Below, one piece after another: positions 2,277 through 22,884 of a stretch of DNA of 64,000 nucleotides. Within the stretch, counting starts at the first letter, position 1, and every line of letters begins with the position of its first letter. This stretch comes from Stropharia rugosoannulata. Taxonomy: Eukaryota; Basidiomycota; Agaricomycetes; Agaricales; Strophariaceae. Below the pieces are notes generated by a model. That model had not been told where the DNA came from. It did no database searches and worked only from the letters and a program-made list of their open reading frames with translations. The position numbers and the translations under genes are program-made. Location of the stretch: assembly GCA_028532985.1 (NCBI GenBank), contig JANCIK010000012.1:2480001-2544000 (forward strand), in the 5' to 3' direction.

Positions 2277-2289
2277 CACATAGTGTAGC

Positions 2290-2369
2290 TACACTGTACC
2301 GACATAGTCATACCTAGGGACACTACAGTGTAGTCGACAGTGTCGGTCCCTAGGAACACCCTCGTACCC
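2290..2369 (+). repeat. Left terminal inverted repeat of the KDZ transposon
   Basis: It begins TACACTGTAC and ends CTCGTACCC. It matches the reverse complement of 16618-16697 at about 70 of 80 positions by eye. Just outside it lies a perfect 14-nt palindrome AGTGTAGCTACACT (2282-2295), which is not conserved at the right end. Confidence 0.85.
2313..2354. other. 42-nt nested T-shaped palindrome, left terminus
   Basis: A 9-bp stem CCTAGGGAC/GTCCCTAGG encloses two perfect hairpins in series, ACTACAGTGTAGT (6-bp arms) and CGACAGTGTCG (5-bp arms). There are no spacer bases. The fold is a three-way T shape like that of parvovirus terminal repeats. The right terminus has the same arrangement. Confidence 0.85.
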
Positions 2370-3055
2370 ACAGTGTATATGGCCTAAACGGGACAAACTA
2401 CACTGTAGTCGATATACTCGTACCCGGGTACGGGCCCTATATGCCGCATTATGCCGTGCAGTCAAGCAGCATTGCATTGCAATAATGCGCGGCATTACAT
2501 TATACTGATGTGCGGCATGGTGAAAAAAGGAATTATGCCGCATTATGCCGTGCAGTCATGCAGTATTGCATTGAAATAGTGCGCGGCATTACATTATACT
2601 AAAATGCGGCATGGGGAAAAAAGTAATTATGCCGGAAATCATGCAGCGTTAGATAGTTGCATGATTCAAGTCAATATGTAGGCTAGTTGGAACTATTGTG
2701 AGTTTGCCGCATGAAGAATAATTGCTATTAAGAAGGTGTGTACTTCACTAGCTTGTATGGACCCTATAAGCTATATGATGCTGCAAGATAGTAATGATAT
2801 GAGTTTGCCGCTCTGAGTTTGCTGCTTTATAAATAATTACTACTGCGAAGTCCATACTTCACTGCTAATATATTTGACTGTATTACATGGTACTTTGCCA
2901 TGATACTTCAAGGTTGGCCGCTTTATGCCATATTGCAAATTCATTGTGGTAATATTCTCTGGGGCCGGAGCTCACCACATAAAAACAAACACTGCCTCAA
3001 GAAATCAATTTTGCCGGATCACAAAATGTTATAAATTTCTACTTATATACAAGGC
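2370..3055. repeat. Left subterminal region with about 90-bp GCCGC-type repeats
   Basis: There is no gene. Two tandem copies of about 90 bp (about 2450-2540 and 2535-2625) contain TATGCCGCATTATGCCGTGC, then GCGCGGCATTACATTATACT, then TGCGGCATGG. Further on come TTTGCCGC-type words at 2701-2920. An additional TACCCGGGTA palindrome lies near 2431. Confidence 0.7.
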
Positions 3056-5073
3056 CTACTCAATATCGGATGACTCTGATGATGACTCTCCATCAGATGC
3101 ATTGCCCGCAGAATCAATGGATGACATGTTCACATCTTGCTCCTCAAATTCTTCAATGTCATCATCGTCCGAGTCTCCCTCAATGTCCTCAGGAATGTCT
3201 TCAATTTGAATGTGGGCAAAAAAATTTATACCAGCGGAGGGTCGGGCCAAACTATCAGACTGTGATGAGCTTTGCAGTTGGGCAGGCAGAATTGTAGTGG
3301 AAGCGGCCATATGACTAGAACCAATATGAAGTGTGGCAATCGACATCATTTCATTGTCGTCAAAATCATCGAGCTGAGGCAAGGCACTTGTGCCAGGGAG
3401 GGATAGAGGCATCTCATCAAAATCTTCAAGTGATGGTGTACTTGACTTGGCAGGAATCATACCATCAAAGTCTTCAAATGAGGGCACACTTGATTTTGCC
3501 GGATTGACATTTTGCTTTTCCACATTTGCCGCAGAGTCCTCGGGATTGCCGCTGGCCAATGTAGTTATCAGATCATCATCAAAGTCTGATGTCTGTGGGA
3601 GCTTATGAGATGCCAGGGTGCTGGGTGGTGCAGGAGCCTCGGGCATATAAATGTCATCGTCATCATCAAAGTCAGATGGCTGTGGCAATGTGGCAGCATC
3701 AGGGAGTTGTAAAAACAATTCATTGTCATTGAAGTCGTCAGATTGTGGTGGCATGCCAGAATGAGTCGTGTGATCATTGTTGTGATCAACCATTGTTGCT
3801 GCGGCAAAATCAGAAATGCAGCCATCTCCTGCGGGCAACTCGTCGTCGAAGTCCTCCAATGTCGGCACAGAAGGGTCTGTTAGTTCTTCAAATGCTTTCA
3901 TCACTATGTCAGAAATGCTACAGGAATGTTGACTGTCATCGCCAGATTCAGTATTCAAGTCAATGTCACGGAAGCGGGGATCTTGCAGCAAACTTGAATC
4001 GACTTCAGGTGGTGCAACATTGCCGCTGCCTGCAAAAGAAAAAACTGGGGAAACCTGACGAGGTGACTGATATCCTGATGCAGAGGCCATGCTACCATCC
4101 TCCAGGGGTGTATTGTAGTCTGAGCAACTATGAGCTAGGGGGTCATGGGTCGGGCGCCATTGCAGGACTTCTTGCTTTGTTGGTTCGTATGAAGTGTCTC
4201 CTTTCTGAAGAATGGCCTCACGGATATCAAATGCACCAATCATTCGCCGTGTACTGAGATTAACATCAGTTTTAAATGATGCTTGCATTGCATCGGAGTG
4301 CTCCTCTATTTGAGATAGTGCTTCAAAGGCCTCACGGCAAAGTTGTTGAAGTGTAAGGCAGTTATCGCATTTGAGTGGTGTCAGGCGTGCATGGGGCTTG
4401 CTGGGAAAATCCTCATCTGCAGGTGGCTCAATTGTAGGCACGTCTTCTTCTTTGTTGAGCTGAGGATCTTGCAGCGCAATATTGATGAGGGGGTGCGGCA
4501 AACTTTCGGGCACATGTTGCGGCAAATTATCTTTATAGATGCAAAGTGCAGTATTGAGTGTATACTGGTCAAGGTGGGCAAAATTGCTATGGCCGGGGTT
4601 CCACCAATCCAGATAGTACTTGCTAGCCGTGATATATTCTTCCTTTGGATCAAGAGCAGATGGGTAGAGGGCAATTACTTCCATAAATTCATCAGTGAAA
4701 GAAAAGTTTGCTGCAGTTGATAAACAGAATTGATCAGCCAATGATCGGATAACGAAAGGGATGGGAATGCCGAGGGTCATTGTTGAAGATAGGCCAATGA
4801 ATGACATAGCAAACTTCTATTGTTTTAGTATTTGGTAGTCAATAAATAAATGCTTGGAGAAAGGATTACTAAGCTTACCAGTTCAGTGCGTAAATGTGAC
4901 AAGCGTGCTTCACGTGCCCTGTTGCCTTCCAGGCTATGAACAATGGCAGGAATAGCCACACGGAAACGAGACTCGAAGTAGGCAATCACAGTTGCAATAT
5001 ACTTGCGTGCAGGATGGTCGAGAACGTCACCAGTGTTGAGAGGGTTGAAGCAGTGCACTACAGGAGTAGACAT
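3056..5073 (-). CDS. Acidic-repeat protein encoded next to the KDZ transposase (function unknown)
   Basis: There are two exons, 4879-5073 and 3056-4816, in phase 0, giving 651 residues. The ATG at 5073 gives MSTPVVHCFNP. The first half is globular-looking, with no family recognised. It includes YYLDWWNPGHSNFAHLDQYT and a CDNC pair. The second half holds about seven spaced copies of an acidic motif around P..xDFDD (LEDFDDELP, PSDFDDDDD, QTSDFDDD, FEDFDGM, LEDFDEM, LDDFDDNE). It ends in an Asp/Glu/Ser tail (SDDDDIEEFEEQD, SSSESSDIE). The gene lies 89 bp downstream of the transposase stop on the same strand and uses GCCGC-rich codons like the rest of the element. A chromatin or nucleic-acid mimic role is possible but unproven. 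Confidence 0.7.
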
Positions 5074-5162
5074 AGTGGACAAATGAGGTGTTGTTTGAAA
5101 AAATTGGGGACAGAGATGGTGGTTGTATGTAAAGAAGATTATATTTGAACAATACATTTATT

Positions 5163-8100
5163 TCACATTATTGATTCAAACTCAGCAGACTCCAATGAAA
5201 AGTGACAGTTTGCGTTAACGGCAAGCCGGTGCCAGTCCCACTGCTTTCGTTCTGCATATGCCCGTGGCCCTGCGGCCATCTTGTTTGCCGCATCAGCAAT
5301 GATTGCCGCCCAGAATTGGCTTTTGTGTAGAAAATACTTGACCGTCCACATCATTTCATTTCGAATGTAAGTTCTTTCTTCATTCCACCTTGCATGTGTT
5401 GCTCGTGCTCGAAGCCAGTGTATACGTTTGACTGTAAATAAGGTTCATCATGCCCGATGAGTGAAAATGTTTGCTGAATAGTTGGCCGCAAGTCATTCAC
5501 AAAATAATGACTTACATTCTAGTACGGTTGCCGCATCACTAGAGTCAGATACACCAGCATTTGCATAAAATCTGCGGCTAACAGATTGCCATATCCATGA
5601 CAATGTCAGTCTCGTTGAGCCTGTTTGATTAGGCTGTAAAATTGCCGTGCTACATCGAATGTCCTCTTTCTTCAAAGGTTGATAAATGTGTAGTGCATCA
5701 GCAGCAATGTCACCCAACACTTCAAGCCTGCTACGGTTCCATGAGTACATTTGGCACAAGAAGGAGATTTTCTGATTCAGTTCAACAATTGCTGTGCGGC
5801 CACGGGTTCTGACACCTTTTCTTGGTGCATTTCGAATTTGATCTGTGAACCTAAATGACTTTTCCGCAATGGCTTCGCATATTTGTGTGAGGTAATGGTG
5901 AGCCTTTTTTCGCCGCATAGGTAGTTCATGTTCATTGTATATGTGATCAATGTTCAAGTATGATGGCAAAAATATTTCAACGTGTTCTGGGGGAATATCA
6001 GAGTCATATTCGGCTATCTCTGCCTGCTTTGATTTGCCTTTGTGCCGTCTAGAATGTGGTTGAAGACTAAATGGAATGTGAACATCATCTTCATTTGTCA
6101 TTGCGGCAGTACATTCAGTTTCTGATGGTTCTGACATGTCCAAGTTGTCCCAATTTGAAGTGGCTGTATTGTCTGCCGTGACAATGGCTGCATTTGGCTG
6201 CTGGTCAAATGGAATAACAGTAACCGCAGCATTCTTTTCAAGTTGTGTTAGTTGTGTCAGTAGTGGAATTAAAGCAGCCCGGTCCTTTTGAATATTTTCA
6301 AGTGATGCATCATGTTTGTCCTTGCAATAGCGGCGAATGCTATATTGAATTGACATTCTGTGCGGCAAAATAAGTATGGTAAAGTCAGTGACTCAATGGC
6401 CAAATGCAGCAAACTTACTGTTTCTCTTCAACCATTAGGGCATAGTGAATCCATTTTTCTATTGCTGACATTTTGTAGTTATCGGCAAAGTCATGGTCTT
6501 CCTCCGTCCCAAGTTTGATTCTTGCTGCATATAGGTCCATCACAGTCTTGTCATGACCGCAGCGTTCTTCAGCCTCTTCAATTTCTTCTCTCCAGCAAGC
6601 AACTTCTTCTGGACGCACACTGTTGGTTAGATTATAGAGGTACTCTTTACTGTTTGCAAGCTCCCTCTTTGTTTGATGATAGCGGCGAACCAGAGATTGT
6701 ACAATACCCAATGCCTTTTTGTGATTTGCATCATTGCAATGATCATCAATGACTTCTGCACGGTGTGCTAAAGTAGCAGTCCTGACTGTCGGTGAAATTG
6801 AATTTAAAGATGACCACATTGACTCCAATATTTCGCCGGCAGTTACACCAGAGCCTGGAATAAAGGATGTTGCATATCGGAAAAAGCATTCATCTTTGTG
6901 GGCATGTACATGGAATAGTCCAATTGCTGATTCGATTTGGATTCCCTGCAGCAATAAATGTCCAATTCGCCGCTGAAGGTGGATGATGTACTGGCAAACT
7001 ATGTCATAAATAATCATCAGCCCTTGCTTACTATCAACATTTGTTGTATTAATGGCCTGCAATAGAGCATAGTCAACATTTTTTTGCTGTTCGCCCTTAA
7101 AGAGGTCAACAACACTGTTAGGAGCATAACATCCATGGCGTGCACAGGCAATGGCAACTTTGCCAGTACGGTCACATGCGGTGGATGCAAGCAATGCATT
7201 CATAATAGCGCGGAATGAATTTTCGCAAGGTGCCTTCTGAGAATAGGACATATGTCAATGATAACGCGGCAAATTTAAGAATGTGGCCAACTATGTTTGC
7301 CGCATGGTCACTGACTGTTTGAGTTTCTATTGCCCTGGACAAAAAATCATGATAGTCAGCTTCTCGTGGATCCATTAGGCCACCCTCAGAGAGCCAAACA
7401 TCAGCATTTGATTGTTCGTTACGAACATGGTCCGCTTTGAAATTGCCGTCAGCAACAAACATCCTCCGATACACAAAACTGTGAAGATATTAAGTACTGA
7501 TTGATAAATTCTGTCAATGACTTAACTTTCCTGTCTTTTGAAGTCAAGTCATCAACCCATTTCTCCGGCAAATTCACCCCAGGAATTGGACATGCTGGAC
7601 AATAGACACAAAGTTCGCCGGGAGTCACTTGCATTGGTGACCGATCATTATGACCAAATCCATTCCATTTCAATTTTTTCAACCAACGCCAAATTCTGGT
7701 CATGCGGCGAAATATGTTGTAGACATTTGCCACAGCAGTTGGACTGAGCGGCATAGTCAGGCGTTTTAGCAACTGGAAGAATTGATATGCAGAAGACTTC
7801 AACTCTAGGTTGCACAAGCGGAAATGGTCCAGGACCTGTGTTGTAAAAAGAGTTCTGATCCTGATAAAACTTGCCGGGATCAGGCGCTGAGACACAATAT
7901 CGGCAACAAGCTCTTCTTCCGTGGGAGATTGGCATGAACAAGTAACCATTGCCAGATAGTGAAGACCATTGGTGTGAATGATACGAACATAAGCATTGCA
8001 GAGCAAGTCAGTGGTTGGCCGCTGATCCATTGAACTTGAATTATTGAGATATGCGGGCAAAGTTGACATTTCTGAATCCAAGTCCTCTTCGTCTAATTGA

Positions 8101-9095
8101 TCTTCTTCCTCATCCGGTGGTTCAATTTCATCAAGAATTTGTTCTGTATCTGTGGAAGTGCTTGCAGCATAGACTCGGTCAAAGTATTGCTGATATGCTT
8201 CATCAGTTGCCGCTTCATTGTCTCCGGCCATATTGTCAACATTCTCAGATAAGTCATTGGCCATGTCAATGTCATCCATCACAAAAGTTTCATGATCTGC
8301 AGCATTCTCCTGGTAAGCAGTGCTCAGCAATGTTTGCTCAGCCAAGTCATTGTGCACTTCAAAAGCTTCAAGTCTCTCCATGGTAGCCTTCAAAGTTGAA
8401 CATAGTCCCATTTTGCCTTGATGTTTGATTAAGACATAACAACCAACCTCCCACAAGTCTGCCTTTCGAAAGTATAGTCCAGTCCATTTTTCTATACGGT
8501 GGAAGGGGTTGACCAGATGAGATTGCCGCATGCAAGTGCGGCAAAGTATCTCAGGCAATGTACAGTCAACACATCGGTAGACAGCTAGCTTGGGCATATT
8601 GCACTGTTGACATTCCCGCACACTTTGCCGCAGAGCCTCTCTAGACAGCAAGGCTTGAAGAAGAGGTTTTGCCTGTTGAACATACTCCATGATATAGTGA
8701 CGGTGCGTCTAGTTTTCCATGACACAACAATTGCGATAGTTGAACAATTGCCGCATTATGCAAATATTATATTTAGACATCTCGGCAAATATTATTACAA
8801 ATTTGAATTTCAGACTTACTTTCTTAGGCCTTCCTGGTGGAGCATGGTTTTCGAAAAGATTGCCGCTATTATTAAACTCTGCGGCAAACTCCAAATTTGC
8901 TTGATCATGGTCAGTGTCGAGATGTTGAGTTGAACTTGTTGTAGGCTCTGATACCCTTGTATTTGTCTTTGCAGATCGTTTCTTCAAGGTTGCACCCTGC
9001 TCGTCAATATCGTAGAACACATGTGACTGCATGCGTGGATCCGAGGCAGGTATAAATTCATTGCGCCTACTTCTCTTGCTTGGTCGGTCAGCCAT
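5163..9095 (-). CDS. CxC2-type KDZ transposase, complete
   Basis: Six exons read 9095-8820, 8708 to about 7522, 7478-7316, 7236-6419, 6357-5516 and 5431-5163, totalling 3555 nt or about 1184 residues, the usual length for the family. The second donor is uncertain (7521 or 7526); only 7521 keeps frame. The N-terminus is basic (MADRPSKRSRR). The CxC2 zinc cluster has C125/C128, C138/C141, C148/C151, H156 and H162, ending HLVNPFHRIEKWTG. A second pair is CVYCPACPIPG. The catalytic core has VADGNFKAD (D about 498), IIYDIVCQY (D about 620) and PGSGVTAGEILESMW (E about 677/680), with HVHAHKDECFFRY between. The C-terminus has HWLRARATHARWNEE. The protein would cut and join the element's own ends. 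No inactivating change is seen. Confidence 0.9.
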
Positions 9096-9291
9096 TGCGA
9101 AGGACAGTGGGGATGAAAGGAAACACAATTGTGACCATGCCACAATTGGAATATATATATTACTCTATCCTTATCATTGTGTCATTATTCTATATCGGTT
9201 GTGGCATAACAATGTGATGATGGACAAGATAATCAAATTGATTGAATCAATATATAAACAGCCATGGAATGTACATGTCACCGAACACACA
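9096..9291. promoter_or_regulatory. Divergent promoter between transposase and accessory gene
   Basis: This is the 196 bp between the transposase ATG (9095, leftward) and the accessory-gene ATG (9292, rightward). It contains TATA-like runs ATATATATATTA (about 9152-9163) and AATATATAAAC (9248-9258). It probably drives both genes (inference from spacing and orientation). Confidence 0.5.
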
Positions 9292-11623
9292 ATGTCTTCC
9301 TTTGTTTCCCCAGATGTTTATCCTCCTTGCAAACAGGGCACTGGACAGCAAAATGGGCGACACTATACCCATGCTGAGAAAGCAATCATGAAACCATTCA
9401 AGGACAAGTACCTGGCAGCAAGAACTGTTGCAGAGCGTCGGAATATTATTTGCCAGGAGATCTTGTCCCACCTTTTTGATTATTGGATTCCACGAGTACC
9501 TGGTGGAGTTTCATGCATTGATATAAATGGAGTGTCAAAGGTGGCTTCTGGTATTTGAAAGAATAAATTTATTTCTTACCTGGAGTAGACAGTAGTGGAT
9601 TATATACGAAATAACTGGAGGTTGAACAAGAGACTCACCCAAAAGTCCAATTTGCGAGTTACTCTGGCTACTGTGCTGTGGAACAATCACCAGGAGCAGG
9701 TGTATCGTAAAATCTATGAGATACAAATGTTGCCATATGATGATTCAAAAGCTCCACCAAATATCTTCAGGCATAGGTCATCTGCCATCAAGAAAATACT
9801 GGATAACATGTCAAAAACAGAACTTGATGCACTGGAGGAAGAGCGCAAGAAGATAAAGGAAACTGGATATACTTCAGATGTGTGCGTTCAGTATGTTACA
9901 TCTTTCTCATTAGATGGTCATGAATCAATGCAGCAATCTAGAAACGCACAAAAGTTCTGTCGAGCAAGAATTGCAAAGGCTGATAGACTGCACTGGTTAG
10001 AAATGGGTGTTTTGTCACTAACATTCACCGCTGGGAAACTTGATGGGCGCCAATGGGGTGTTGCAGTGTAATTGTTTCTGACTTTGCCGCAATCATTAAC
10101 TCAATGACCAACCTTCTTTCTAGTTATGACAATGTTAATGACATTCTTGGCATGAATGGAAAGTCATTTGTGCAGTTGCACGGAAGTTTGGTTGATGAAG
10201 TTCGCCGTATGTGGTTCAATTACATTGAGAAGGCAAAGCTTATACTGGACCCTGAGGACCATGACGAAGGTTTATCTGGTTACATCAAGGTTATCTCTGG
10301 TGCAAATGGCTTTCCGGTGATTGTTGACCCCCCGGCAAACTTCAACACACTCAGCCACGACACATTGGAAGACATCTATCGCGAGTACATCAACACTCAT
10401 TATCGTGTGTCTTTCATTTTGTCTGCAAATTATTAAAAAGTAATTAAACTGACTTCATAAGAGCTTGCAAATTCATTCAAGTACAAGTCTGCGCCATGGA
10501 CTAAGATTGCCGCACATCAGTATGATTTTATTGACAAACAATACCTACCGGCAAACTTCACCATTCAGTCGGCAAAAGAGCTTAGCAAGAAAACACTCAT
10601 CCAATTTATTGAATTTATTGTTGAGCGGCAAGAACGCAAGCCATTGCCAAGTGTATTCCGTTTTGCAAAGGTACAAAGTGCCAAGAAGGTTGACATGGAC
10701 ACACTTATTGTCTCAAGATACCCTGACGAAGAAAACTACGAAGAAAGACAAGCCATTGAGAATAAAAAAATGTTGAAAGCCAAGGAAGCAAAATCAAAGA
10801 AATGAGTTCGCCGTGGCAAAGGAGAAAAGCAGTTGCCGTTGTTGGCCGAACTCATGGTAAGTAATAGTTATGATTGAGCAGGATTTAATGACTCAGAGCA
10901 TTCTCTTACCAGCGGCAAACTCCTGAGCCTTCCACTGATCTCGGCCAAAATATGGTGTTAACAACAACCTCTATGCCTTCATTGCCGCAACCAGACTTGG
11001 CAGCATTTATGCATCAGTTCCCGTCGCCACATGTTCATCAACCAACAGTACGGGGTACTACCATATCTAACATGCAGCAAACTCCGGGCAATATACCAGA
11101 CCACTTGATAGATCCAGCTTTGCGGAATGAAGAAGTCCTAGAGCATCCAGGTGTTATTCAGTATCTTGCGCCATCTTCAAGGCCTCCAGCATATGGCCAG
11201 CCTCCTCAGCAAAATATTGAATGGACGACACAAACAATTATGCAAATGCCGCAATCATTGGCACCAGAAACTTTGCCTGCTGCTGCAATTTCTTTGGAGT
11301 CGTTATATGTAAATAATGATTTGGCCGCAGCAGGGCAACTTGGTGACGTCAGTCTTCCAACTCCTCGACCATCAAGTTCACCATATCCAGAAAATGCCGC
11401 AAATGACAAGCGGGCAACTCGTGGCCGCATGGCAAATGTATCCACTTTGCCACATCAAGATGAGGTTGACGTTGAAAATGAAATAAGTCAGATGCAAGCT
11501 AGAGCCCGTAAAGGGAAAGCAAGAGAGAAGGACGAAGCAGTAGTGGCAAGACCTAACACACGAAGTGCAGCAGCATCACAAAGACACCAGACAAGAGCTA
11601 CAACTTCGAAGACCCGGAAATAG
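9292..11623 (+). CDS. KDZ-associated protein of unknown function, with an in-frame TGA
   Basis: Six exons fit by phase: 9292-9495, 9589-9890, 9942-10067, 10124-10404, 10462-10856 and 10913-11623. Recognisable segments are VVDYIRNNWRLNKRL, MSKTELDALEEERKK, ADRLHWLEMGVLSLTF and YREYINTHYQLANSF, then SAPWTKIAAHQYDFID. This order (a basic region, an 'EEER' helix, then 'HYR.. W..I') is what I recall of the unknown ORF paired with CxC2 KDZ transposases in mushrooms. The frame meets TGA at 10803-10805 after about 418 residues. Beyond it the same frame continues (VRRGKGEKQ), splices in phase and runs to 11623, 672 codons in all. The TGA fits CGA (Arg) changed by C to T. The tail is Pro/Ala-rich then basic (TRSAAASQRHQTRATTSKTR). 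Confidence 0.65.
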
Positions 11624-11796
11624 TTACTTTGTCTTCATGTGTTTAATGTGTCGGCAAAGTCAACTTAAATCAAATTATCACACATTTCTGACACAAGGCA
11701 TAAAGTTCATTGAGCATGCACAGTGAAACTATATATGCGCATAAGACGGCCATTACATTGCTGCAACACAAGACAAACATTTATTACAAAAACTAA

Positions 11797-14700
11797 CTAC
11801 TTCTTTGTTGAACGAGGCTTACTTGATGAAGTTGGCTTGCTTGATGTTGCCCCCTTGCTCATTGGTTTCGCCGCGGCTTTCCCCTTCCCTTTGCTTGACG
11901 ATGCAGGTTTGGATGAAGATGCCGCCTTTGAGGATGCCCGGAGTCTTGAACTTGACCTTGAGTTGGCCACATCAGAAGATGCGGAAGCAGAACGTGAGCG
12001 CCCCCTTCGTACAGGTACATCAAGCAAGTCTGCAGTTGCCGAGGCCATTTGGTCTTGCTGGACATGAGACTCACTGTCTGCTGCAGACGGAGAAGTTACC
12101 AACTCTTCCAATGTTGCGATAACCGGATGCTCAGATGACTTTGCTTTCTCTGCGGCCAACTTGTCTTCTGCGGCCAACTTGTCTTCTGCGGCCAACTTGT
12201 CTTCTGTGGCCAACTTGTCGTCTGCAGCCAACTCGTCTTCTGCGGCCAACTCGTCGTCTGCGGCCAACTCATCGTCTGCGGCCAACTCATCATGTGTGGC
12301 CATAGTTGCCAACGGAATGTCAATGTTGGGAATGACTTCAATTCCATGCTGACTGGGCTCAGCGTCGATATCCATTGGCTCTGCAGTATCTGGGGAGTTT
12401 GCCGCATCAGTTGATCTGGCTGCATCGGGAGAGTTTGCCGCGTCATTAAAGTTTGCCGCCTCTTGTGAATTTACAGCGGCGTTGTTGAGGGAGTTTGCCG
12501 CGGTACGCGATTTGGCCGCAACAGGAGAGTTTGCCGTGACAGCGTTGTTGAGATTATTGCGGATGGGAGTAGGGGGAATGACACTGGCAATGATTATGGG
12601 TGAACTTGTTGAGTTTGCCGCAGTGTCAATGTTGTCCTCTTCACGCATTGCGTCCTCATGAGCGGTATGAATGGTCATATTGACGTCGGCCATCATGTCT
12701 TCAATGTGCGCATTGCATGTGTCCACGCCATCTCCGACAGTCTTGAGACTGGGGTTGCCATCAACAATGGACTTTGTGATCTCCAGAGCTGCTTCTCGTG
12801 CAGCTTCACTTTCGGCATATTCATTGAGAGTTTGCCGTGTTGTGTTGAACTGCTGCGCAATCGTGTCTTGTTTTCCACGGCAAAGTTAAGTAAGGATCAC
12901 GTTCAAGCATATATGTAAGAAATTTACTTACCTTCGCCGCCATAGTCATTGACTTGATGACGAATTGTCCTGATGGCCTCATAGTCATCATCACCCTCTA
13001 AGTCCATTTCGTCCCTCACTGGGGGTGGCGCAGACAGGTCAGTATCTTCAGTGACACCCTCAATTTCGTGGGCCCGCATCTTGGCAAAGGTGATCATCTG
13101 GAATGCTGACCCGGCCATGACGTCCATAATAGTTGCGGCTTGCTGACGTGCAGACCGCACAATGTCCTTCGCCTGGGCCTCTGCTTTGCGATGGATAGCA
13201 TGGGCCTCTTCCCCTTCATTGTGGTCCACTGCTTTGCCCACACAGAGGGCGGACTCCAATACCGCAAGACGTGCGGCAAACTCCTTCTCGACGGCATTGT
13301 GTTTTAAAGTGAGCAGGTTCATCTCATTATTGCGCATCTTCAAGCCTTCTTGCAAAGTGTTGATCTCGACGTCTTTTGCGGCCATCTGATTTTGCAGTTC
13401 GCTTACTTTCCTTTCGAGTCCTGAAACACGATCATGCTGAGTCTTTGAAAGGTCCAAGATGAACTGATGCCACTGCCCAGAGTTGCCCTTTATGATTCCT
13501 ACTTGATGCTCCAGTTCGGGGATACGTTGCGTCATGAATTTCATTGACTCTGCGGCCAACTCTTGGAGTGACGCATCTGGTTTATGGGCTACAAAATAAG
13601 TCAGAAAGTAACTAATTATATACAGGCTTATGCGACTTACCTGGAGGTGCAGATGTAGGCTTTTTTGCCGCAAGTGTCGAGGGATGAGGCGGCGTTGATA
13701 CTCTTTCCGGCTGGTGAGATGGCCGCGGGTTAACAGCTGCCCGAGGTCGTGGGTCAACAGCTGCCCGACGCCGCGGGTCAACAGCTGCGCTCGATGGCAC
13801 TACAACCACTGCTCGTTGCCGCACTTCAGCAGTTGGTCTTGATGACGGTCCTGCGGGCATTGGGCTGAGTGACCGTCTGGCTTCTTCTGTGTGGTGGCCA
13901 CGAGAGCGACTTCTTGACTTGGCCGCATCAAAAGACTGCGCATGGGGTTCGTCATATGGCTTTCGCAGCCATTTCCGTTGCATAGTTGGCGGCGATCCCT
14001 TGTAAGAGTCGGAGCTGTCTGGGGTGGGTGACCTTGCCTTCTTCTGCTTGGAGCGGCCTCGAGAACGGCTTCGAGATTTTGCTGGAGGTGGGGCTGGAAC
14101 CTCTCCTTCATTTCGTCTTTTTGCCGCCCTTTCCACTGCACGGGTCACAGTCATAGCAGCAATCTCTTGAAGAGATTGCCGCACAATCTCAAGATCTGAT
14201 GTAAAAACTATTAGCAAGTTAAATCGACTTGAGAATGTACTTACCTGTTGGTGCGGGCTGTTGAAGCCCGGGCAAGTTTGCTGCTTCTGCCAATGGCAAA
14301 CTAGGCACAGTTTGCGTCTCCACGGCCTCGTCAGAAAGCGAGCACTGATGTTTGCCGCTTGCGCACTCAAGGTATGCGCGCTTCTTTCTACTTTGACCAG
14401 TCTTGACGCGGCATGCTTTTCCAGAGATACGGCAGGAATTGCATGATGGTGACCAGTACCAACCGTCTTTTGTGGCAGGCTCAGTTCGCAAGCGCTTGCC
14501 TTTGACCTTGCTGAATTTTGTTTGCGGCAATGTTGAGTTTGCCGCAGGTGTTGAAACTGCAGCTCCTTCAGTTGGCCGTGCCTTCTTGTTCATCTCCACT
14601 GGACCATCCAAGTGCTCGCCCTTCCTCTTACTCGGTGCGGGCTGTGAGTCGATGTCCATCTGATCGTTGGATGGCTGCATTGACATTTGCCGGATACTTG

Positions 14701-15185
14701 ATGTGAGGAAATGAACGTTGCCTGATTCAGAGTTGGCCGCTTCAGCGTTGGCCGCACGAGAGTTGGCCGCACGAGAGTTGGCCACATTAGAGTTGGCCGC
14801 CTTGCCCTTGCCGTGAAGTGAGATGCCATGCTTTGCATACCAAGCCTTTTCTACATCAGGCGGCATTGGCTTGCCTTTTGAAGTTGCCCGGTAGTCACGA
14901 TACAAGTTGAAGAACTTGTAGTTGTCCCACTTGACTCGGGCATCTTTCACTAATGGATGATGTAATGCGACCTCTTTCTGTTAATGCATTGAATAAGACA
15001 TCAATAGATCATTGACTAAAGAAAGAAAAAAGTCTTACAAGCTCACTGTACTCAGCACTGAGCACTGCGCCAAATTGTTGTGTGTGCAGACCCTCCTGGA
15101 AAAGATCTTCAAGTCGATTAAGCCTCTTCACATAGGCCTCAAAAGCGGCCATGTTGTTGCTGGAAGAAGTGGGCATGGAAGACAT
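11797..15185 (-). CDS. 1053-aa coiled-coil, repeat-rich protein carried by the KDZ element
   Basis: Five exons (15185-15039, 14977-14245, 14195-13641, 13588-12932, 12866-11797) give 3162 nt with every junction in phase. Regions in order: a short N-terminal helix; AANSRAANSRAANAEAANS repeats; a cysteine motif WSPSCNSCRISGKAC...ECASGKHQC that could bind zinc; an Arg/Ser-rich stretch (KSRSRSRGRSKQKK); AAVDPRRRAAVDPRPRAAV repeats; a long coiled coil (about HQVGIIKG to FAARLAVLESAL); a second AANS cluster; eight tandem DELAADDELAAEDKLAAE-type octads; and a Ser/Lys-rich basic tail. Many repeats are direct translations of GCGGCAAAC or TTGGCCGCA. No function is recognised. It converges on the 9292-11623 gene (173 bp apart). 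Confidence 0.75.
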
Positions 15186-15407
15186 GATGGCCGAAGAGTA
15201 TGAGGAGTGCGGCAATGCGGTGAGAAGGAAGGAGGCAAAAATCAAACCGTGGAAATTTTAAACAAAGGGGACGTCATGTGATCATTATATCAGTCATCAG
15301 CGTCCATCATGTGATCACCATCTATTTCACAGGTTGGCAAATGGTCATTACATATCTTGCCTTCTTACTACATCATTCAACCTAGTCAACTTCAAACTTC
15401 ATAAGAT
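15186..15407. promoter_or_regulatory. Second divergent promoter region of the KDZ element
   Basis: This is the 222 bp between ATGs at 15185 (leftward) and 15408 (rightward). A direct repeat GTCATGTGATCATTATATCA / CATCATGTGATCACCATCTA (near 15272-15328) holds two copies of CATGTGATCA, 36 bp apart. These are candidate activator sites (inference). Confidence 0.4.
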
Positions 15408-15914
15408 ATGGCAGGATTTGATCGAATCAAAGAACATGCAAAATATGTTGATACATTACTATCAGCTATTCGAAAAGAATGTGACACAGACACAGCCAGT
15501 TTAATGGTCAGCGGCCAACTTGTGTATATCTCAAGTATCTCACCTACAATCTTTCATTCATTTAGCCTCAGAAAGCGCTAGAGACTCAATATTCCTTAAT
15601 CTCTCCAATGCGGGCAAGAATTCCGAATGACCCTGTAAGTTTGCCGCATCATCACGTTTCAAACATTTTAATGTTCAATACATATTAAGCCTTTAACTGA
15701 TCGGGAGTTATTGACACTGCATTCACGAATTTTGTCTTACGTGCAAATGGATGGCTGCAGCTACTTAAATGCCTGTCATGTTGTGTACATGGAGGAAATG
15801 GCACGTTTGGAGTTTGCCGAGCATCAGCGCAAGTCTTGGGCAAGTTTGCGACAACACATACAGAAGAAAAGGAACAATTTTCAGGACAAGTTGAAGAATG
15901 CAGGAGTCTTGTAA
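15408..15914 (+). CDS. Small 130-aa protein of the KDZ element (unknown)
   Basis: There are three phase-0 exons: 15408-15506 (MAGFDRIKEHAKYVDTLLSA), 15566-15634 (QYSLISPMRARIPNDP) and 15690-15914 (LTDRELLTLHSRILSYVQMD ... KKRNNFQDKLKNAGVL). The introns are 59 and 55 nt with GTCAGC and GTAAGT donors. The protein looks mostly helical with a basic C-terminus (RQHIQKKRNNFQDKLK). No family is recognised. Intact splicing phases and position inside the element make a real gene likely. Confidence 0.6.
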
Positions 15915-16617
15915 ATACATGTTATAATTTGTATAGATAAAAAGCATTACCATGTGGTCATAGTTGTATATTAATAATACTGTAAAGTCACATTGTAATG
16001 CGGCAATCTGATTTTTGTATTGAATGGGCAAGTATTATAAATTTATTTTGCGTATGCCGTGATGCATTTTTGAATCGCAGCAATCTCACTTTTGTATGCG
16101 GCAATCTTATTTTTGTATTGTATGGGCAAGTATTATAAATGAATTTTGCATATGCTGTGAGGCATTTTTCAATGGCGGCAATCTCAATTTTGTATGCGGC
16201 AATATTATTTTTGTATTGAATTTCAAGGGTATGCCGCACAGCATTTATGTAGTGGGGTAAGTAATTTAAATGTATTTTGCGTATGCCGCGATGCATTTTT
16301 GAATCGTGGCAATCTCACTTTTGTATGCGGCAATCTTATTTTTGTATTGAATTTCAAGGGTATGCCGCACAGCATTTATGCTGTGCGGCAAGTATTATAA
16401 ATGCTTTTTGCATATGCCGCAAAGCAATTTTTGAAGGATGGCAATTTCACTTTCTGTATTCTACTTCGAGGGTATGCCGGAAAACAAATTTGGGAATGCC
16501 ATATGACAAACAGTTTTGAGGTCTCATAGTATTATAGATGGTTTGACTATAGTAATCATTATCTTCTTAGTATATGCGGCAATGTCTGGCATGTCCAAAT
16601 ATGGACAGGAAGGCCGC
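15915..16617. repeat. Right subterminal tandem repeats of the KDZ element
   Basis: From about 15990 to 16450, three to four diverged copies of a roughly 115-bp unit alternate TATGCGGCAATCTYATTTTTG with TATTGAATTTCAAGGGTATG, CCGCACAGCATTTATG and GGCAAGTATTATAAATG. Each unit places GCGGCAA and GCCGC words about one to four helical turns apart. There is no credible gene. Confidence 0.75.
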
Positions 16618-16697
16618 GGGTACGAGAGTGTTCCTAGGGACCGACACTGTCGACTACAGTGTAGTGTCCCTAGGTACGACAGTATCAGTACAGTGTA
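16618..16697 (-). repeat. Right terminal inverted repeat of the KDZ transposon
   Basis: Reverse complement of the left repeat (2290-2369), with about 10 differences. It begins TACACTGTAC when read inward from 16697. The outer 12 bases to 16709 (AGGTAGGCACGT read inward) differ from the left end. Confidence 0.85.
16633..16674. other. 42-nt nested T-shaped palindrome, right terminus
   Basis: Same construction as at 2313-2354 in inverted order: stem CCTAGGGAC, hairpin CGACACTGTCG, hairpin ACTACAGTGTAGT, stem GTCCCTAGG. All four stems pair perfectly although the flanking parts of the terminal repeats have diverged. Confidence 0.85.
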
Positions 16698-16709
16698 ACG
16701 TGCCTACCT

Positions 16710-16717
16710 GACAAATA
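16710..16717. repeat. Right 8-bp target-site duplication GACAAATA
   Basis: Exact repeat of 2269-2276. On the minus strand it is the TATTTGTC part of the codons for Y-L-S in the interrupted gene. Confidence 0.85.
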
Positions 16718-19700
16718 ACCATTCTTGATGAGATCAAGAACATTTTTAGCTGTCTTCCAATTATTTCTTGAAAAAAGCGGTTTTTTTGTATCAGGATCAA
16801 TTAGTGGGCCATAGATCTGAAATACTTCTGCAACAACAGGGTAGAGAAGGTGTGGTGGTGGAACAATATGTTTGCATCTTCTCCGAAGCCAAGCTGGAGA
16901 TGAGTTGCGAAGAATATCATAAGTAGTTGGTGGGTTCTGCAGTGCGCCCCATGCATTGATCCGAGCCTTGTCCTCACTGTCAGGAATAAACAGAGCATCG
17001 CGAAGATCATGCGCAAACTGTTTACAACACCCATGTGTAGCAGAAATATAAAACATATGAAATATGTGCCAGATGTCTTTTAAGACACAGCTATGAGTTT
17101 TGAAGTCCCATTCATCAGCTGTTGGATTTTAACCAAGTATCTCGGTCCCTAGAGTGACACTCTCTGGGTCCTGATCTAGCCCCAAGATATTTGGTGATAT
17201 AGTGTCACCAGAGTCCTGTGACAAAAGAGCACCAACAGTTGTTGGTGTATCAACTTCAGGGATGTTGTCCGAGTCCAATACAGTGGGACTAGTGTCTATA
17301 AAAGGTTCCTCGGATTCCATATCTGATGTGCGGCCTGTGTGCGTGATGGCTGGTTTTGGCAGAGCCGTAAAATGATTACGAGTCGGCTGGCACTTAACAT
17401 GGCTCTGCTGTACCAGTGCTGTAAATGGTAGTTTCCCAAAAGTAGATAGTGAGCACTTGTGTACTCCAAGAATAGCCCCAGGGACAAGAACTTTAGAGAC
17501 ATCAATAAGTATCCGTGTTTGAGAAACTCTAAGGCCTTCAAACATAGTATCTGATCTATCAGAAATGACACCTTCAGCTATAAGGCAAGTATTGTCGTTG
17601 CTGTAGACCAAAACCGGGGTAAAGGGTGGCGGATTTACTGGAAGAGGCTGCGGAATACTGAGTTTGATAAGTGTGTTATATATGCACAAAGATATGTATG
17701 CATCCTTTGAGGCATATTGAACCTGTTCATTAGTTAGTTCCACACTATCCCAGTTACTGCTTAGCTGCTCAGAGTCATTTTTGTCAAGTCTTTTGTGGAG
17801 AACAAGAGCAGAGAGATCAGCAAGGCTTGTTTTTGAGATACTAGAGATCAAGCATCTCTCTTTGGCAAGTTTTGCAAGATCTACCGCTCCCGTAAAGGCT
17901 ATGTCAGAGTGACATGCTTCTTGAAGATAGGCAAGATCTGCATTGACCATGCGGCCGACTTTGAGAACCCGAGGATGCGCCAAAAGGAGCTTTAACTGAT
18001 GTGGGAAGTCTCCTTGCGACATAATTGCACCAATCTATACAGACATATATTAGAAACTTGATTATAACAGACAATATGTATATGTGAAATGCATACCTGA
18101 ACGATATAAATATTTTCCTTGTATGCAATCTGTATGACTGCTGTTTGTCCGCGGTTATTTATAGTTCCACGAGGCGATATTTCAATGTTCCATTCAGAGT
18201 CAAAACCAACTGGAACAGTGCCGCTGTCATCAGGAATATCTTCGAGGATTAGGCGAGCCATGTCATTGATAGATGGCCTATCACGCTTGATAAAAATATT
18301 GACGTTTGGAAACTCAGAAAGGGAAAAGGCATCCAGATATCCGTACTTCTCAATGGCAACAACGTCCTTGTGCAAAGATGGAAAGCAGCACTCAACCCAA
18401 GCTTTGTCAGCCATGTTGTCCGTATAGAAGACTAATGGCTGTGTGTGTCCATAGATCTCAAGTGAGTCACGCACATTTGTAAGTGTTAACTCGGCCTGAG
18501 CCTGAGCTTTTGTAGCAACAAGATTGCACCCACGTATTTCACTGAGCTGATTAGTTAAGGTGAATAGTGCAGTGAACACCTGCTCTCCTTCGACATGTGC
18601 TATGTGCTTTGTGACCTACGTAAAATGTAAGTCTAGCAATAATATGGAAAGAGAATTTGCTTGCTTTATGGCTATGATCAATTGCCCCAATCTCACAAGG
18701 TAACAATGCCGTGTGCTGGTTAAAATCTCTTGCATGCTTCTCTATGTAGCCGTCATACATAGAAGCAAACCACTGACCATTTGGAATGTACCCATGTGGA
18801 CCTGTGAGACTCCGATCTTCGAAAGGCAGAAAGCTCTCATAAGTTATATTCAGCCAAGTATCCAGACCTGATAAGCACGCATAGATGTTCTCCAGATACT
18901 GGAGGTGCAATTTATCATATGCAAGTAGGTGCTGTACTCGCAAAGAGTCCAAGAACTGTTTGGCACCCATACCATTCTGCATACAGGATCGCATCCAGGC
19001 AAAAACCAAGTTTGATATAGCACTTCGATGACTCAGGCGTGCAGGAAACTCACGTGCAAGAGCCGGAGGAAGCATTTTTAAAATAGCTGGATCCCAGCTC
19101 TGATATGTGACTGTGTTCTTCTTTGATTTTGGATGCCGGCAGACCATACAGCGGTAACGGAAGCCTATAATCCAAAATGACAAGTCCATATCAACCACAC
19201 GGCGTGGTCGAGAAATGGTTCCATGTCGCACAAGTGAAGTCTTGCAATTTGGGCACGGTATAACCTTGCAAATTGACTTTGGATCCCACAAATAGAAACG
19301 CAGATTGTTCAAATCAGCAGGTGAAATGTGTTTATGATGTCGAAGTAGGAAGGTAACAGATTTGTGTGGGAACCAAAATGTATTTGACTCTGCGTACAAT
19401 GGTGGTAAGTCATCAGAATTCCGCCTCATGGACTCCTCCAAGTGCTCCTTGAATGGATTCATTAGCCAAGTGGGAAGCAGCCGACGGGCGTTAGCACGAG
19501 TGTGATCCGATGGGGTGCCAAGCGGTGTACCACCATATTCATCATCGTCATCTGATGGCTCGTCATCCTCATCCCCTAGTCCTTCACCATCTCCTTCTTC
19601 TCCATCTTTTTCTTTGCTTTCCGAGAGGTCTATTGAAACCTGTGGATCTTCATCTGGGAGTATTGACTGGTAGATTACATGATTGAAGGATGGAGGTTCT

Positions 19701-20375
19701 GGCAAGTTGTTTAGGGCTTCATTGACCGGAGGCAGAGGTGGAGATGCTAGGGAAGGTGGAGTATATACAAGTGGTGTTGGTGAAGCATTTTGCGAGCTAG
19801 TAGCAGTGCCACTGACAACCTAGTTTAAAATATATCACTGCCTGACGGTTAGATATAATATAAATAGCACATACATATGATCCAAATTCAACAGAGAAAG
19901 GCAGTGGTGAGGGCTGTTTCCGGGGATGACCTCGTGGCCGCCTGGGTACATCTTCTATGCCCAGTGCAAGTCTCTCCTTCTGTTTATATCCAGTGCCAGG
20001 TGGTCTCCCGTGCCACGGCCGTGGCCCAGATTCAACGGCTAGAGTTGTTGTATGTGGTCGTCCCCGTCCTTGCTTCGGAGGTAATACAGTTGCGGTTGAG
20101 TCAGTAGTACCAACTTCCCCGGGATCAATCAAGACAAGATCTGATATATATCATGTTAGATGTAAAGTAGAAACCTTTAGTATACTATGAACTGGTCTGC
20201 TTACTGTGTGATTCGTCCAAAGGCGCCCTACTGTTTGATTTGTCCAAAGGCAGTGCAAGATTCGGACTGGGGGAATGTCTAGTGAGATAGATGGAGCAAA
20301 AGTGGAGATAGTAGATTCCGGGTTAATCAAAATGAACTATTGACTGTGACTGTTGACTTACTCGGGTTCACTCAT
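16710..20375 (-). pseudogene. DUF6729 and 3'-5' exonuclease (RNase D/WRN-like) gene, split by the KDZ transposon
   Basis: Exons read 20375-20362, 20278-20205, 20140-19875, 19819-18665, 18615-18097 and 18034-16710, then continue at 2276-2142. The start is MSEPEHSPSP. The N-terminus has AT-hook-like GRGRP and PRGHPRK. The DUF6729 part has WLMNPFKEHLEE, CPNCKTSL, YRCMVC and GAIDHSHK. The DnaQ-fold exonuclease has GFDSEWNIE (Exo I), VGRMVNADLAYL (Exo II) and YASKDAYIS (Exo III), with all acids kept. A TAA (17129-17131) breaks the frame after EILG; coding resumes in frame with NPTADEWDFK and IFHMFYISATHG. Intron 4 begins GC, not GT. The gene is dead through the stop, the transposon and the downstream TGA. 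The family occurs as multicopy, possibly mobile, genes in mushrooms. Confidence 0.85.
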
Positions 20376-20580
20376 ACTATTGCTTGATTTTGGAAGTAGG
20401 AATAGAGAAAGAAGAAATGCAGGAGGAGGATAGCAAGGACCGCGACGAGCATGCGGAAGCTGCTCGTCCGTATGAGACATGCATTGGGTAATTACATCAT
20501 ACTTGTCTATATATGGCAGTACGGCCCGAGTATTTTCAAACTCAGTATTCGTGAGCTATTCACAACAGACATAAATGGCC
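20376..20580. promoter_or_regulatory. Upstream region of the DUF6729 gene
   Basis: Only about 200 bp separate the ATG at 20375 from the R half-element. Read leftward, a pyrimidine-rich stretch (CTCCTCCTGCATTTCTTCTT, about 20437-20418) precedes the start, as in many fungal promoters. No TATA box is certain. Confidence 0.35.
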
Positions 20581-21168
20581 AGCCGGAATTGAACCAACAG
20601 CTTCATGCATGACTTAAAACCAGCATACTTTCCCCTACACCATGTGCCTGTGTATATAGACTCACTGCAGGTCAAATATGATGGTAATGCTCTAGACTAC
20701 ATTAATTTATTACATCACAAGTCATTGAATTTAGTCATGTTCAGATGTATTTTATATAAGATTTACAATTTAGATTACAAGTAATAGTTGACAATAGCTA
20801 TTCATAAGTCAATTTTTTCCCAGGTTCTTATGTCTTTAAATCTCTTTTTGAGTCTTTTTGTAGCTTTTTAATACACTTTATGAGACATTTTTAAAATCTT
20901 TTAGAGACATAAAAAGATTTATACAATTACATCAATACAATTAAATACTTAGAAAATTTGAAAGACTTTAAAAGACATAAAAAGACCTAAAAAGACATTG
21001 GAAGAATTACATATTTCCCTAAAGTCTCTAGGAGACCTTTAAAAGTATAAAAAAAGACATGAAATTCACCAAAAGACATATTGGTGTCTCAAAAAGACAC
21101 TAAATTTCCCAAGAGACACATAGATGTCTCAAATAGTCTCTTTTCCGAAAAGTGGATTTCCTGATGGA
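20581..21168 (+). mobile_element. Half copy of element R, ending at its tRNA-like segment
   Basis: It matches 1553-2139 almost throughout, with few substitutions. The left limit coincides with the 3' end of the tRNA-like segment (B box GGTTCAATTCC at 20595-20585, A box at 20642-20632, minus strand). The T stem GTTGG/CCGGC pairs fully here if G-T wobbles are allowed. The left arm of the full copy is absent. Its right end joins transposase-coding sequence directly. Confidence 0.75.
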
Positions 21169-22783
21169 GATCCAACTGTGGTGCAGCGTCAGGATCTTGT
21201 ATGCTGCTGGCACACACTTTGCAAGCAGCTGGACAAATTTGCACGCAATGCTGTTGACATCATGGGCATTGACATTGTGAATGCCTTTAATGATGAGCAT
21301 GAAGTTGCCATTCTTGATGGTGCACAAACAAATGAAGAAGGCGAGATTGCAAATGAAGCAGTCAGTTATGCTGACCCAGAAAGACAGCTAATGGCATTCC
21401 CTTCAGCAATCACTGAAGAGCTCATGACAGCCACCGGTGCAACTGCTCAGGATAAATCTCTGCTCTGCCAGTTACAGAAAACGGAGCTGAAGGTTAGGAA
21501 AGCTCATGCTGATGATTTATTGGAATCCATTCATGGAGAAATTATTTAGAAATCTTGGCTATATGCATTTGACGTCAGGAGGACAGATGGTGCCCATCAC
21601 ACTCGAGCACAAGATCATGTTGTGCTACTTGCCCAAGCAACCAGCACACACCGGTGGAAATATAATGAGAACAGATCGTCAATGCTTCGTCTTGCCCGGC
21701 GTGAAGATGACCAAGCTAGCATTGAAGCACAGTTTCCAGTCATGTCAAAAGCTGATACAAATACTAGTTCGTCCATTACAGACCCCAATACTCGAGGAGG
21801 CAGCAGTGCGAGAATGTCTTGGATTTGGCGGGTGGAGCATAACATTGGGCCGGCAGTCGATGGAAATCTGAACCAGGAAAGAATTAATGACTGTGAGTTG
21901 ATACGCTGAAGCTCTCTATGAGCGCGTATGCGTGCGAGGCTGTTTCACACGGCTTCTAACCAACCCAAAACAATGCAGGACGAAGACAAAGATGAGACAC
22001 AAAATAAGACAAAACTACGAGGGAGTGTAAGCTGCAACAACAGCTTCGAACCACTCCTGGACGCGGGACGCAACGGGGACGCAAACTAGAACACAAACGG
22101 ATGCGCTAAGATGATGCAAAACGAGGGGAAAACTATTCTATTGTTCTCTACTACATACATCATAAGTATTTAAATATGTACATTAGTAATACAGCTAAAT
22201 GGAACAAGAAAAGTCTAGAAAATGAAAGGAACTGTAAGAGAGTATTGTAAAAGGAAAGCCAAGATGATAAGAATGGAGGGGAAGTGGAGTGGCGTACAGT
22301 TACTCCGAATGTGCATACGAGGCGCGTTGTGGCACGTGGCTGTGCGTCGTGAGAATAGGACTTGATGCGTGCGGTTTCCGTGAGCGTAGATGGGCATGGC
22401 TCATCAGAGTATCATATTTATTTATGTAACATTTAACTAATACAAATTCAGTCTATCATATTCATTGGCTACGTGCCCGTGCACAGAAGATGCATTGGGA
22501 AGAGGAGGTCCTACTCTGCCAACATGAAATGGACTGGACTGTCCACTTCTATGTGCATATGGCTATTATTTGGAAACTCCGCTGGTCTGTATGGGATGAG
22601 GCAGCTGGCCACATTGATCACACATCAAATGATGCCACCGGCCAACTCCTATGCCACCCACTTTGCTTCCAAGCATACACACAAGCACAGATCAATTTAT
22701 GGAACGAATTAGGCAGGGTGGCAGACACCAGATTCAGTAAAGCACATGTAAATTATATAAGCCATTGGCATCATGTGGCCTGA
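21166..22783 (+). pseudogene. 3' part of a second KDZ transposase, with a nonsense codon and an LTR in its intron
   Basis: The frame runs GDPTVVQRQDLVCCWHTLC through LRKAHADDLLES-like sequence to a TAG at 21547-21549. It continues in the same frame with KSWLYAFDVRRTDG and SSITDPNTRGGSSARMSWIW. The intron 21893-22451 then joins to HIHWLRARAQKMHWEEE and ends at 22783. These blocks match exons 5-6 of the transposase at 5163-9095 (there HWLRARATHARWNEE), but the two copies are clearly different subfamilies. The 5' two thirds, including the zinc cluster and catalytic core, are missing to the left of the R half-element. The TAG fits CAG to TAG. Confidence 0.85.
21899..22406 (+). mobile_element. 508-bp solo LTR inside a transposase intron
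   Basis: It begins TGATACGCTGAAG and ends GGCTCATCA, giving the TG...CA ends of an LTR. A 4-bp duplication GAGT flanks it (21895-21898 and 22407-22410). An inverted second copy lies at 38235-38735. It carries a TATA-like TATTTAAATATG (about 22167). No internal retroelement genes are present, so it is a solo LTR left by recombination. Confidence 0.85.
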
Positions 22784-22884
22784 CCAATACATGTGACCTT
22801 ATCAATCTACCATCATCCCATCTGCAGTGATCTTGCTCTTCATTTTTACCTCCTTGACAACCAAATCACCCCTTCAAAAGTACA

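Follow-up and report, generated by a model that had tools for sequence, protein, structure and literature searches.

A KDZ transposon of Stropharia rugosoannulata saturated with a family-specific short word, possibly a self-recognition site for an element-encoded zinc-cluster protein

Results

A Kyakuja-type KDZ transposon near the left end of the window

The stretch analysed here (the window; 64,000 nucleotides, C12:2480001-2544000 of the 48-Mb genome of the fungus Stropharia rugosoannulata) carries near its left end a KDZ transposon of the Kyakuja type that is saturated with the word GCCGC or its complement GCGGC. Pfam places the element in KDZ, with PF18758 at 143 bits (cut-off 26.6) and PF18803 at 58.8 bits (cut-off 27). 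Its ends fit Kyakuja as well: passages of PMC12730594 (section 3.2.1) give a 7-bp target-site duplication (TSD) and 5'-CA..TG-3' ends for these transposons, and here the 7-bp TSD ACAAATA occurs twice, around termini reading CACATA and TACCTG. The left border proposed in a first-pass annotation of this DNA (2277-16709) holds, while the right border belongs at 16710, with the TSD at 16711-16717. Pfam does not assign the "second KDZ remnant", placed at about 17129-19819, to KDZ; its frames encode a 3'-5' exonuclease (PF01612) and DUF6729. The ends form an imperfect inverted repeat of 129 nt, 76% complementary, unlike two Laccaria families reported to lack terminal inverted repeats (TIRs); PMC12730594 reports none in its Kyakuja elements. 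Absence of TIRs is no defining trait of KDZ as a whole. The features of the element are as follows (ORF, open reading frame; sister elements A and B are described below).

2277..16710, the word-saturated Kyakuja-type KDZ transposon itself; TSD, ends, PF18758 and PF18803, second copy on C12
2270..2276, left TSD, ACAAATA
16711..16717, right TSD, ACAAATA
2290..2418, plus strand, left arm of the imperfect TIR (129 nt, 76%)
16569..16697, minus strand, right arm of the imperfect TIR (129 nt, 76%)
2443..16617, first to last of 106 GCCGC/GCGGC words, extended consensus AGTTkGCCGCA
2440..2627, two 94-nt repeats with words in each
3056..4816, minus strand, accessory ORF bearing one half cluster (C-x2-C-x6-C) and conserved, by tblastn, in both A and B; candidate second reader of the word
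5493..6392, minus strand, ORF downstream of the transposase, conserved beside the transposase in A and B
6415..7254, minus strand, KDZ transposase exon (PF18758, E 1.5e-41)
7449..8708, minus strand, CxC2 exon of the transposase gene (PF18803, E 6.9e-16)
12113..12328, 18-nt tandem array with the word, within ORF 11797-12885
12924..13799, minus strand, ORF with coiled-coil-like stretches (weak Pfam coiled-coil matches, all under cut-off); possibly a later exon of the 14219-14980 gene
14219..14980, minus strand, ORF encoding the candidate reader of the word, with paralogs next to other KDZ transposases
14342..14443, minus strand, zinc-cluster stretch, five of six cysteines here, six of six in the sister copy on C12
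15988..16431, spaced repeats of 98 and 131 nt with words, in the non-coding right end

The word fills the element and stops at its borders

A count by eye had put the word at about 100 copies in 14.4 kb. The exact number in 2277-16709 is 106; base composition predicts 15.9 rather than the 13 or so first estimated, and 300 dinucleotide-preserving shuffles of the element gave a mean of 16.6 and a maximum of 31. The density is 7.3/kb in the element and far lower, 1.9/kb, in the host DNA of this window; the equal density in ordinary genes that the first-pass annotation named as a refutation is not found in the rest of the window, to which the comparison was confined. As first reported, the flanks are poor in the word (2 copies in 1-2276 and 4 in 16718-21160); the signal ends at the TSD, and the rest of the window (21161-64000) holds 81 words against 90.0 expected. 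The words stand in both orientations (56 on the plus and 50 on the minus strand) and in exons, introns and spacers, two of them, at 7266 and 7299, in the intron at 7237-7315, all in agreement with the earlier description. With ORF blocks taken as approximate exons, coding DNA has 71 words in 9701 bp (7.32/kb) and non-coding DNA 35 in 4733 bp (7.39/kb). Four tandem arrays leave 80 of the 106 words outside them, and 28 of 29 bins of 500 bp contain at least one.

The longer forms are more extreme. Counted on both strands, TGCGGCAAA occurs 18 times in the element against 0.2 expected, the 9-mer AGTTTGCCG 18 times against 0.1, and AGTTTGCCGC and AGTTGGCCGC 13 and 12 times, each against less than 0.1. 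When the top six words of each length from 7 to 10 were sought in the flanks, just two 7-mers were present, GCGGCCA (twice) and AGTTTGC (once).

A sister copy and short relatives

The genome contains the extended word, AGTTKGCCGCA, 75 times: the window element has 17 of these, a second copy on C12 (C12b, loci L009 and L010) has 18, relatives on C9 and C10 have one each, and 38 are scattered; the reversed control pattern occurs 28 times genome-wide. The extended word thus clusters just in the window element and one sister copy. C12b aligns along the entire element, with 98.7% identity in the aligned part. Four further relatives (on C9, C2, C10 and C11) share about 430 and 238 terminal bases at 88-91% identity. 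Duplications of 7 bp flank C12b and the C9 and C10 relatives, and also that on C2 if its border is shifted by one base; none was seen in the C11 relative.

The C9, C2 and C10 relatives measure 4.3-4.6 kb, with a longest open stretch of 148 codons and no match to the proteins of the window element; past the shared ends they resemble it only at a diverged repeat near the right end. Their unique left halves are nonetheless rich in the word, with 10 copies in 1891 bp (C9), 15 in 1838 bp (C2) and 11 in 1743 bp (C10), about 0.9 being expected in each, and the words are flanked as AG[AT]T[TG]GCCGCA. The interior of the C11 relative is word-poor (34 words versus 16.8 expected in 10.2 kb, with TTKGCCGC at 0.1/kb). 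Pairs of AGTTGGCCGCA at L016-L018 were considered as further word-saturated elements and rejected, being part of a short repeat common to these loci. The three loci (C1:377.7k, C6:1381.8k and C11:819.2k) hold short repeats that resemble one another, contain AGTTGGCCGCA as an inverted pair and lack saturation.

Sister KDZ families carry other words

The genome has 123 KDZ matches and 32 TET/JBP matches; relatives of the CxC2 ORF also occur in Psilocybe cubensis (1) and Agrocybe pediades (2), among the 120 matches listed. Sister elements were traced by a genome search with ORF 14219-14980, most paralogs of which lie about 6 kb from a KDZ match. Neither of two such elements is dense in GCCGC. Element A (C10:1014-1031k) has GGCCGA 54 times against 6.3 expected and TGGCCGAA 17 times against 0.5; element B (C9:554-570k, L059 and L060) has CGCCGA 54 times against 5.0, TATCGCCGA 13 times against 0.1 and CGGCCG 30 times against 1.8. 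The loci around the best 30 KDZ matches add the words CGCCGA (3 loci) and CCGCCGG/CCGGCGG (15 loci; CCGSCGG below), with z up to 52.7. In F0, a CCGSCGG element on C13, words run along about 11 kb, drop to zero and resume after some 2 kb, possibly at the start of another element.

The family words, TGGCCGAA in A, TCGCCGA and CCGGCCG in B, CGCCGA and CCGSCGG, all contain CCG or CGG, and a cross-table of five words by ten sequences is near diagonal. Around a GCCG core, the neighbours at -1/+1 are mostly T/C in the window element, G/A in A, G or C/A in B and C/G in F0. Over the KDZ core A and B share 68-71% identity with the window element, against 31-33% in the 14219 and 3056 proteins. Words do not stand at the same codons in the window element, A and B: none of four exon sets gave a significant result (the lowest p, 0.076, was for the window element versus B in CxC2), so once families have split, words seem to appear at new sites.

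We examined 31 KDZ loci, the best 30 of the 123 matches plus L063: 22 belong to word families, one is weak (L022) and eight are wordless (L019, L020, L021, L024, L030, L031, L048 and L063). Among the latter, L024, L030 and L031 group as copies of one family, so wordless KDZ families spread too. The null for the word test was the host and spacer DNA of the window. There a plain count score reached z 22 for a low-complexity host word, CGCGCGC, and z 20 for an array at 25.9-26.3 kb. A bin-based score ranged from 3.0 to 7.3 across 16718-63517, cut into 25 overlapping segments of 3.6 kb (two of them, beginning at 20318 and 22118, scored above 6); it was 3.4-4.4 at the eight wordless loci, 6.8 at L022 and 4.5-14.4 at the word-family loci. 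Ten of the latter (L037, L043, L044, L049-L052 and L054-L056) lie within the null range, and their word assignment rests on longer assemblies and on repetition across copies. L046, a decayed copy with 2 words (0.05 expected), was placed in the CCGSCGG family by DNA similarity, and L063, counted as wordless, has CGCCGA 6 times against 1.7 expected.

A zinc-cluster gene accompanies the words

The protein of ORF 14219-14980 belongs to a family with the pattern C-x2-C-x6-C, linker, C-x2-C-x6-C. In seven of seven aligned zinc-cluster stretches (the sister copy of the window element, A, two CGCCGA-type and three CCGSCGG-type elements) the six cysteines are invariant, the last spacing being x6 or x7. 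All seven stretches match the Zn2Cys6 profile PF00172 weakly (best E 0.0014), the sister-copy stretch staying under the curated cut-off (16 versus 21 bits). No relatives of two of these zinc-cluster proteins appeared at E <= 0.001 among 5.8 billion proteins. F0 elements encode a different protein with a similar cluster and coiled-coil-like stretches; weak Pfam matches suggest a coiled coil in these candidates. Three F0-type proteins (L061, L064 and L065), each beside a CCGSCGG locus, are 43-58% identical overall and 72-88% in the cluster. The DNA of the adjoining KDZ regions differs by just 5-13%, which suggests fast evolution or exchange of the accessory gene in this family.

A zinc-cluster gene lies within 8 kb of the transposase at 20 of the 22 word-family loci (19 of 21 without L046) and at none of the 8 wordless loci, to which the nearest such gene is 10.7 kb away. 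The first-pass annotation had looked to the 3056, 9292 and 11797 genes for the protein that binds the word; ORF 14219-14980 is a better candidate than any of these.

According to passages of PMC5559640, the zinc-cluster factors Gal4, Leu3, Hap1, Put3 and Ppr1 typically recognise CGG triplets in pairs. In our reading CCGSCGG could be an everted pair of such triplets. The candidates resemble Gal4 and Leu3 as described there in having a six-cysteine cluster followed by coiled-coil-like sequence, and in the CGG triplets of their presumed words. They differ from Zn2Cys6 factors in the longer linker between the cluster halves, with a sub-threshold Pfam score, and in being transposon-borne, with putative sites spread over 14 kb and not in a promoter.

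Words decay in resident copies and are conserved between lineages

Between the window element and C12b, 54 of 13306 non-CpG sites differ (0.4%). All 44 substitutions in word cores are transitions and 42 of them fall at the CpG, so words are lost by mutation and retained in the propagating lineage. CpG-directed mutation is strong here in general, with 129 of 526 CpGs differing between the two copies; this contrasts with hypermutation not having been detected in Agaricomycotina, according to passages of PMC12730594 (section 4.2).

A longer interval is covered by two CCGSCGG lineages (11 and 3 copies), which are about 13% apart. They have 19 word positions in common, of 22 and 21, and 17 of these are identical, while the other two are flipped in strand by the middle base. 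Word CpG positions differ between the lineages in 1 of 84 cases (2 of 84), versus 29 of 191 (46 of 220) for other CpG positions (p 2e-4 and 1.5e-5); for context-matched CpG dinucleotides the figures are 1 of 42 (2 of 42) versus 4 of 13 (8 of 20) (p 0.009 and 0.001). The trend recurs at third codon positions, where one of the two directions reaches significance (p 0.11 and 0.006). Selection on the word would be expected to leave such a picture, in which mutation destroys words that the propagating lineage nevertheless retains.

Discussion

Five points are direct observations: the words as such, their specificity for a family, the decay they undergo in resident copies, their conservation from one lineage to the other, and the association with a zinc-cluster gene. 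The reading that we somewhat favour is that the words are dispersed binding sites of an element-encoded zinc-cluster protein and serve element-wide self-recognition, most likely for anti-silencing. The reader would be a divergent Zn2Cys6 (Gal4-like) protein, made from ORF 14219-14980 and its counterparts in sister elements, and every KDZ word family would have its own version of the reader and its own CCG- or CGG-containing word. Selection, and in part local tandem duplication, would have spread the words through the entire element, exons included; the reader, bound along the element, would mark the DNA as "own", and the pay-off would be relief of that family alone from silencing and mutation based on CpG methylation, comparable to the action of VANC proteins on VANDAL elements. 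The suggestion in the first-pass annotation of a self-recognition tag, bound by a protein of the element, gains from the family-specific words, the conservation between lineages and the co-occurrence with zinc clusters; the binding itself we infer. That a zinc-cluster protein reads the word seems probable to us, and we give anti-silencing as the outcome an even chance.

Several observations weigh against this reading. Word CpGs changed more often than other CpGs between the window element and C12b (42 of 115 versus 87 of 411, p 0.0013), and in 14 CCGSCGG copies variation is similar at word CpGs and at non-word CpGs of matched context (60 of 590 and 12 of 132). The candidate reader of the window copy has lost one cysteine to tyrosine, all six being kept in C12b. 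The whole zinc-cluster ORFs of A and F0 have no PF00172 match at E 0.5, and among PDB sequence matches of the cluster an elongation factor (E 0.22) precedes Leu3 (E 0.55). Two word-family loci, L028 (zinc-cluster gene 17.7 kb away) and L035, are exceptions to the association, the Fisher p for which (7.7e-6) ignores kinship among loci that form 4 word families and 6 wordless groups; the wordless families were searched with two query proteins, which more diverged clusters may escape. Family B, finally, has two abundant words (TCGCCGA at 2.0/kb and CCGGCCG at 1.9/kb), and its ORF bears a half cluster. Perhaps family B has two readers, the 14219-type and 3056-type proteins both bearing C-x2-C-x6-C.

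According to the main rival, a transposition or transcription complex (transposase, a TnpA-like accessory protein or an activator) uses the words as its sites, with no part in anti-silencing, and their spread aids synapsis, looping or expression. We think it unlikely, though worth serious weight: both ends are rich in words (9 in 2277-3055 and 15 in 15155-16710), which are also kept in the short relatives that have ends and no long ORFs, as cis sites would be. The equal word density of exons and non-coding DNA speaks against it, as do the near-identical copies made by the wordless family of L024, L030 and L031. In known systems subterminal transposase sites are located at the ends, which also counts against this rival, and the sites of Spm/En TnpA and other subterminal-repeat binders are confined to element ends. 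The KDZ words resemble the TnpA sites in being many, short and in both orientations, with an element-encoded protein (here a candidate) to bind them, and differ in saturating exons.

It is improbable that the words are instead the target of a TET/JBP enzyme or of the methylation machinery itself, with no dedicated reader. Every word contains a CpG, and a TET/JBP match lies within 8 kb at 11 of 15 CCGSCGG loci; yet this holds for 0 of 7 loci of the other word families and for 1 of 8 wordless loci, where a KDZ locus without a clear word has its TET/JBP match 5 kb away, and a single host machinery could not by itself give every family another word. The word as a TET target, proposed in the first-pass annotation, is thus disfavoured as a general rule, 11 of the 22 word-family loci, the window element included, having no TET/JBP match within 8 kb. 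We rejected it in that general form, since TET/JBP proximity does not track the word. The word may be a methylation target, as was also suggested there; its CpGs do mutate by transition in resident copies. Escape from methylation through TET/JBP was proposed in 2025 for the Kyakuja elements of mushrooms (PMC12730594), and passages of the same paper speculate that TET in Agaricomycotina acts without target specificity (section 4.2). The window element shares with these Kyakuja the 7-bp TSD and CA..TG ends, and the CCGSCGG family the TET/JBP genes beside the transposase, whereas the window element and families A, B and CGCCGA have no TET/JBP match nearby.

We find it very hard to credit that the word is a host silencing or mutation signal that the element cannot shed. 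The faster change of word CpGs than of the mean of other CpGs in resident copies fits such a signal, but CpGs in CCGC context outside words change about as fast (18 of 38, by subtraction), and a harmful signal should vanish, while the words are retained from one lineage to the other and abundant in the non-coding relatives. A mutational or compositional by-product (survivors of CpG decay, codon bias or biased gene conversion) is very improbable: observed/expected CpG in the element is 0.58 with words masked (0.68 with them), so decay elsewhere raises the share of words, and 33 of 59 coding words read in an Ala-Ala frame, but the words themselves vanish by CpG transition, differ among families of similar base composition and are as dense in non-coding DNA, and their absolute density far exceeds that of the host DNA. 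Density, family specificity and direction of decay led us to reject an artefact of composition or CpG decay.

The closest parallel to self-recognition by a zinc-cluster reader comes from the VANDAL elements of Arabidopsis, which belong to the MULE superfamily. Their VANC proteins act as anti-silencing factors through family-specific motifs in non-coding DNA, as passages of PMC5735166 and PMC10398659 describe. Those passages describe what is seen here as well: related families of one genome with different short motifs, an accessory protein that has diverged more quickly than the transposase, and motifs spread in part as tandem repeats. The KDZ elements differ in their fungal host, in having a zinc cluster in the candidate reader where VANC has DUF1985 (no match in the 10 window ORFs scanned or in 8 sister ORFs), and in words that fill exons as densely as non-coding regions, to which the VANDAL motifs belong. 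Demethylation induced by VANC has been demonstrated in Arabidopsis, while the KDZ case is known here from sequence alone. The literature searched (titles and openings of abstracts, with few subscription papers covered) contained no report of such words in KDZ or Kyakuja elements, and passages of PMC12810828 and PMC8889193 had none; those of PMC12730594 mention no family-specific word either, whereas the KDZ families here carry them.

A wider proposal, which we advance tentatively and rate a little below an even chance, is that KDZ families use an address code: each would have rewritten itself from end to end, exons too, with a CCG-type word of 7-11 bp that is particular to it and read by its own zinc-cluster protein, anti-silencing (with or without TET/JBP) would be confined to its own copies, and reader and word would change together when families split. 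If true, self-recognition of transposons by sequence would have a second, independent case, in another kingdom, superfamily and DNA-binding domain than VANC and with protein-coding exons saturated by sites. A word-reading protein would give a targeting part to the transposon-encoded anti-silencing proposed in mushrooms. Zinc-cluster recognition could also be studied on the naturally occurring set of reader-word pairs that the families would provide, and how transposon families avoid aiding one another could be tested in one genome with several coexisting codes.

Other repeats in the window

Direct repeats 19 kb apart and 93-96% alike (1557-1856 with 20585-20884, and 2021-2131 with 21050-21160) bracket the transposon together with the exonuclease and DUF6729 genes, and the transposon may sit inside another repeat. 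Further to the right, 22637-24703 is enriched in ACCGGC and CCGGCG/CCGCCG, with CCGSCGG words at 23496, 23812 and 24701, and is perhaps a fragment of the CCGSCGG family. Unlike the dispersed words, TACCGGG forms a local array at 25872-26268, with nine copies packed into 400 bp of a single strand.

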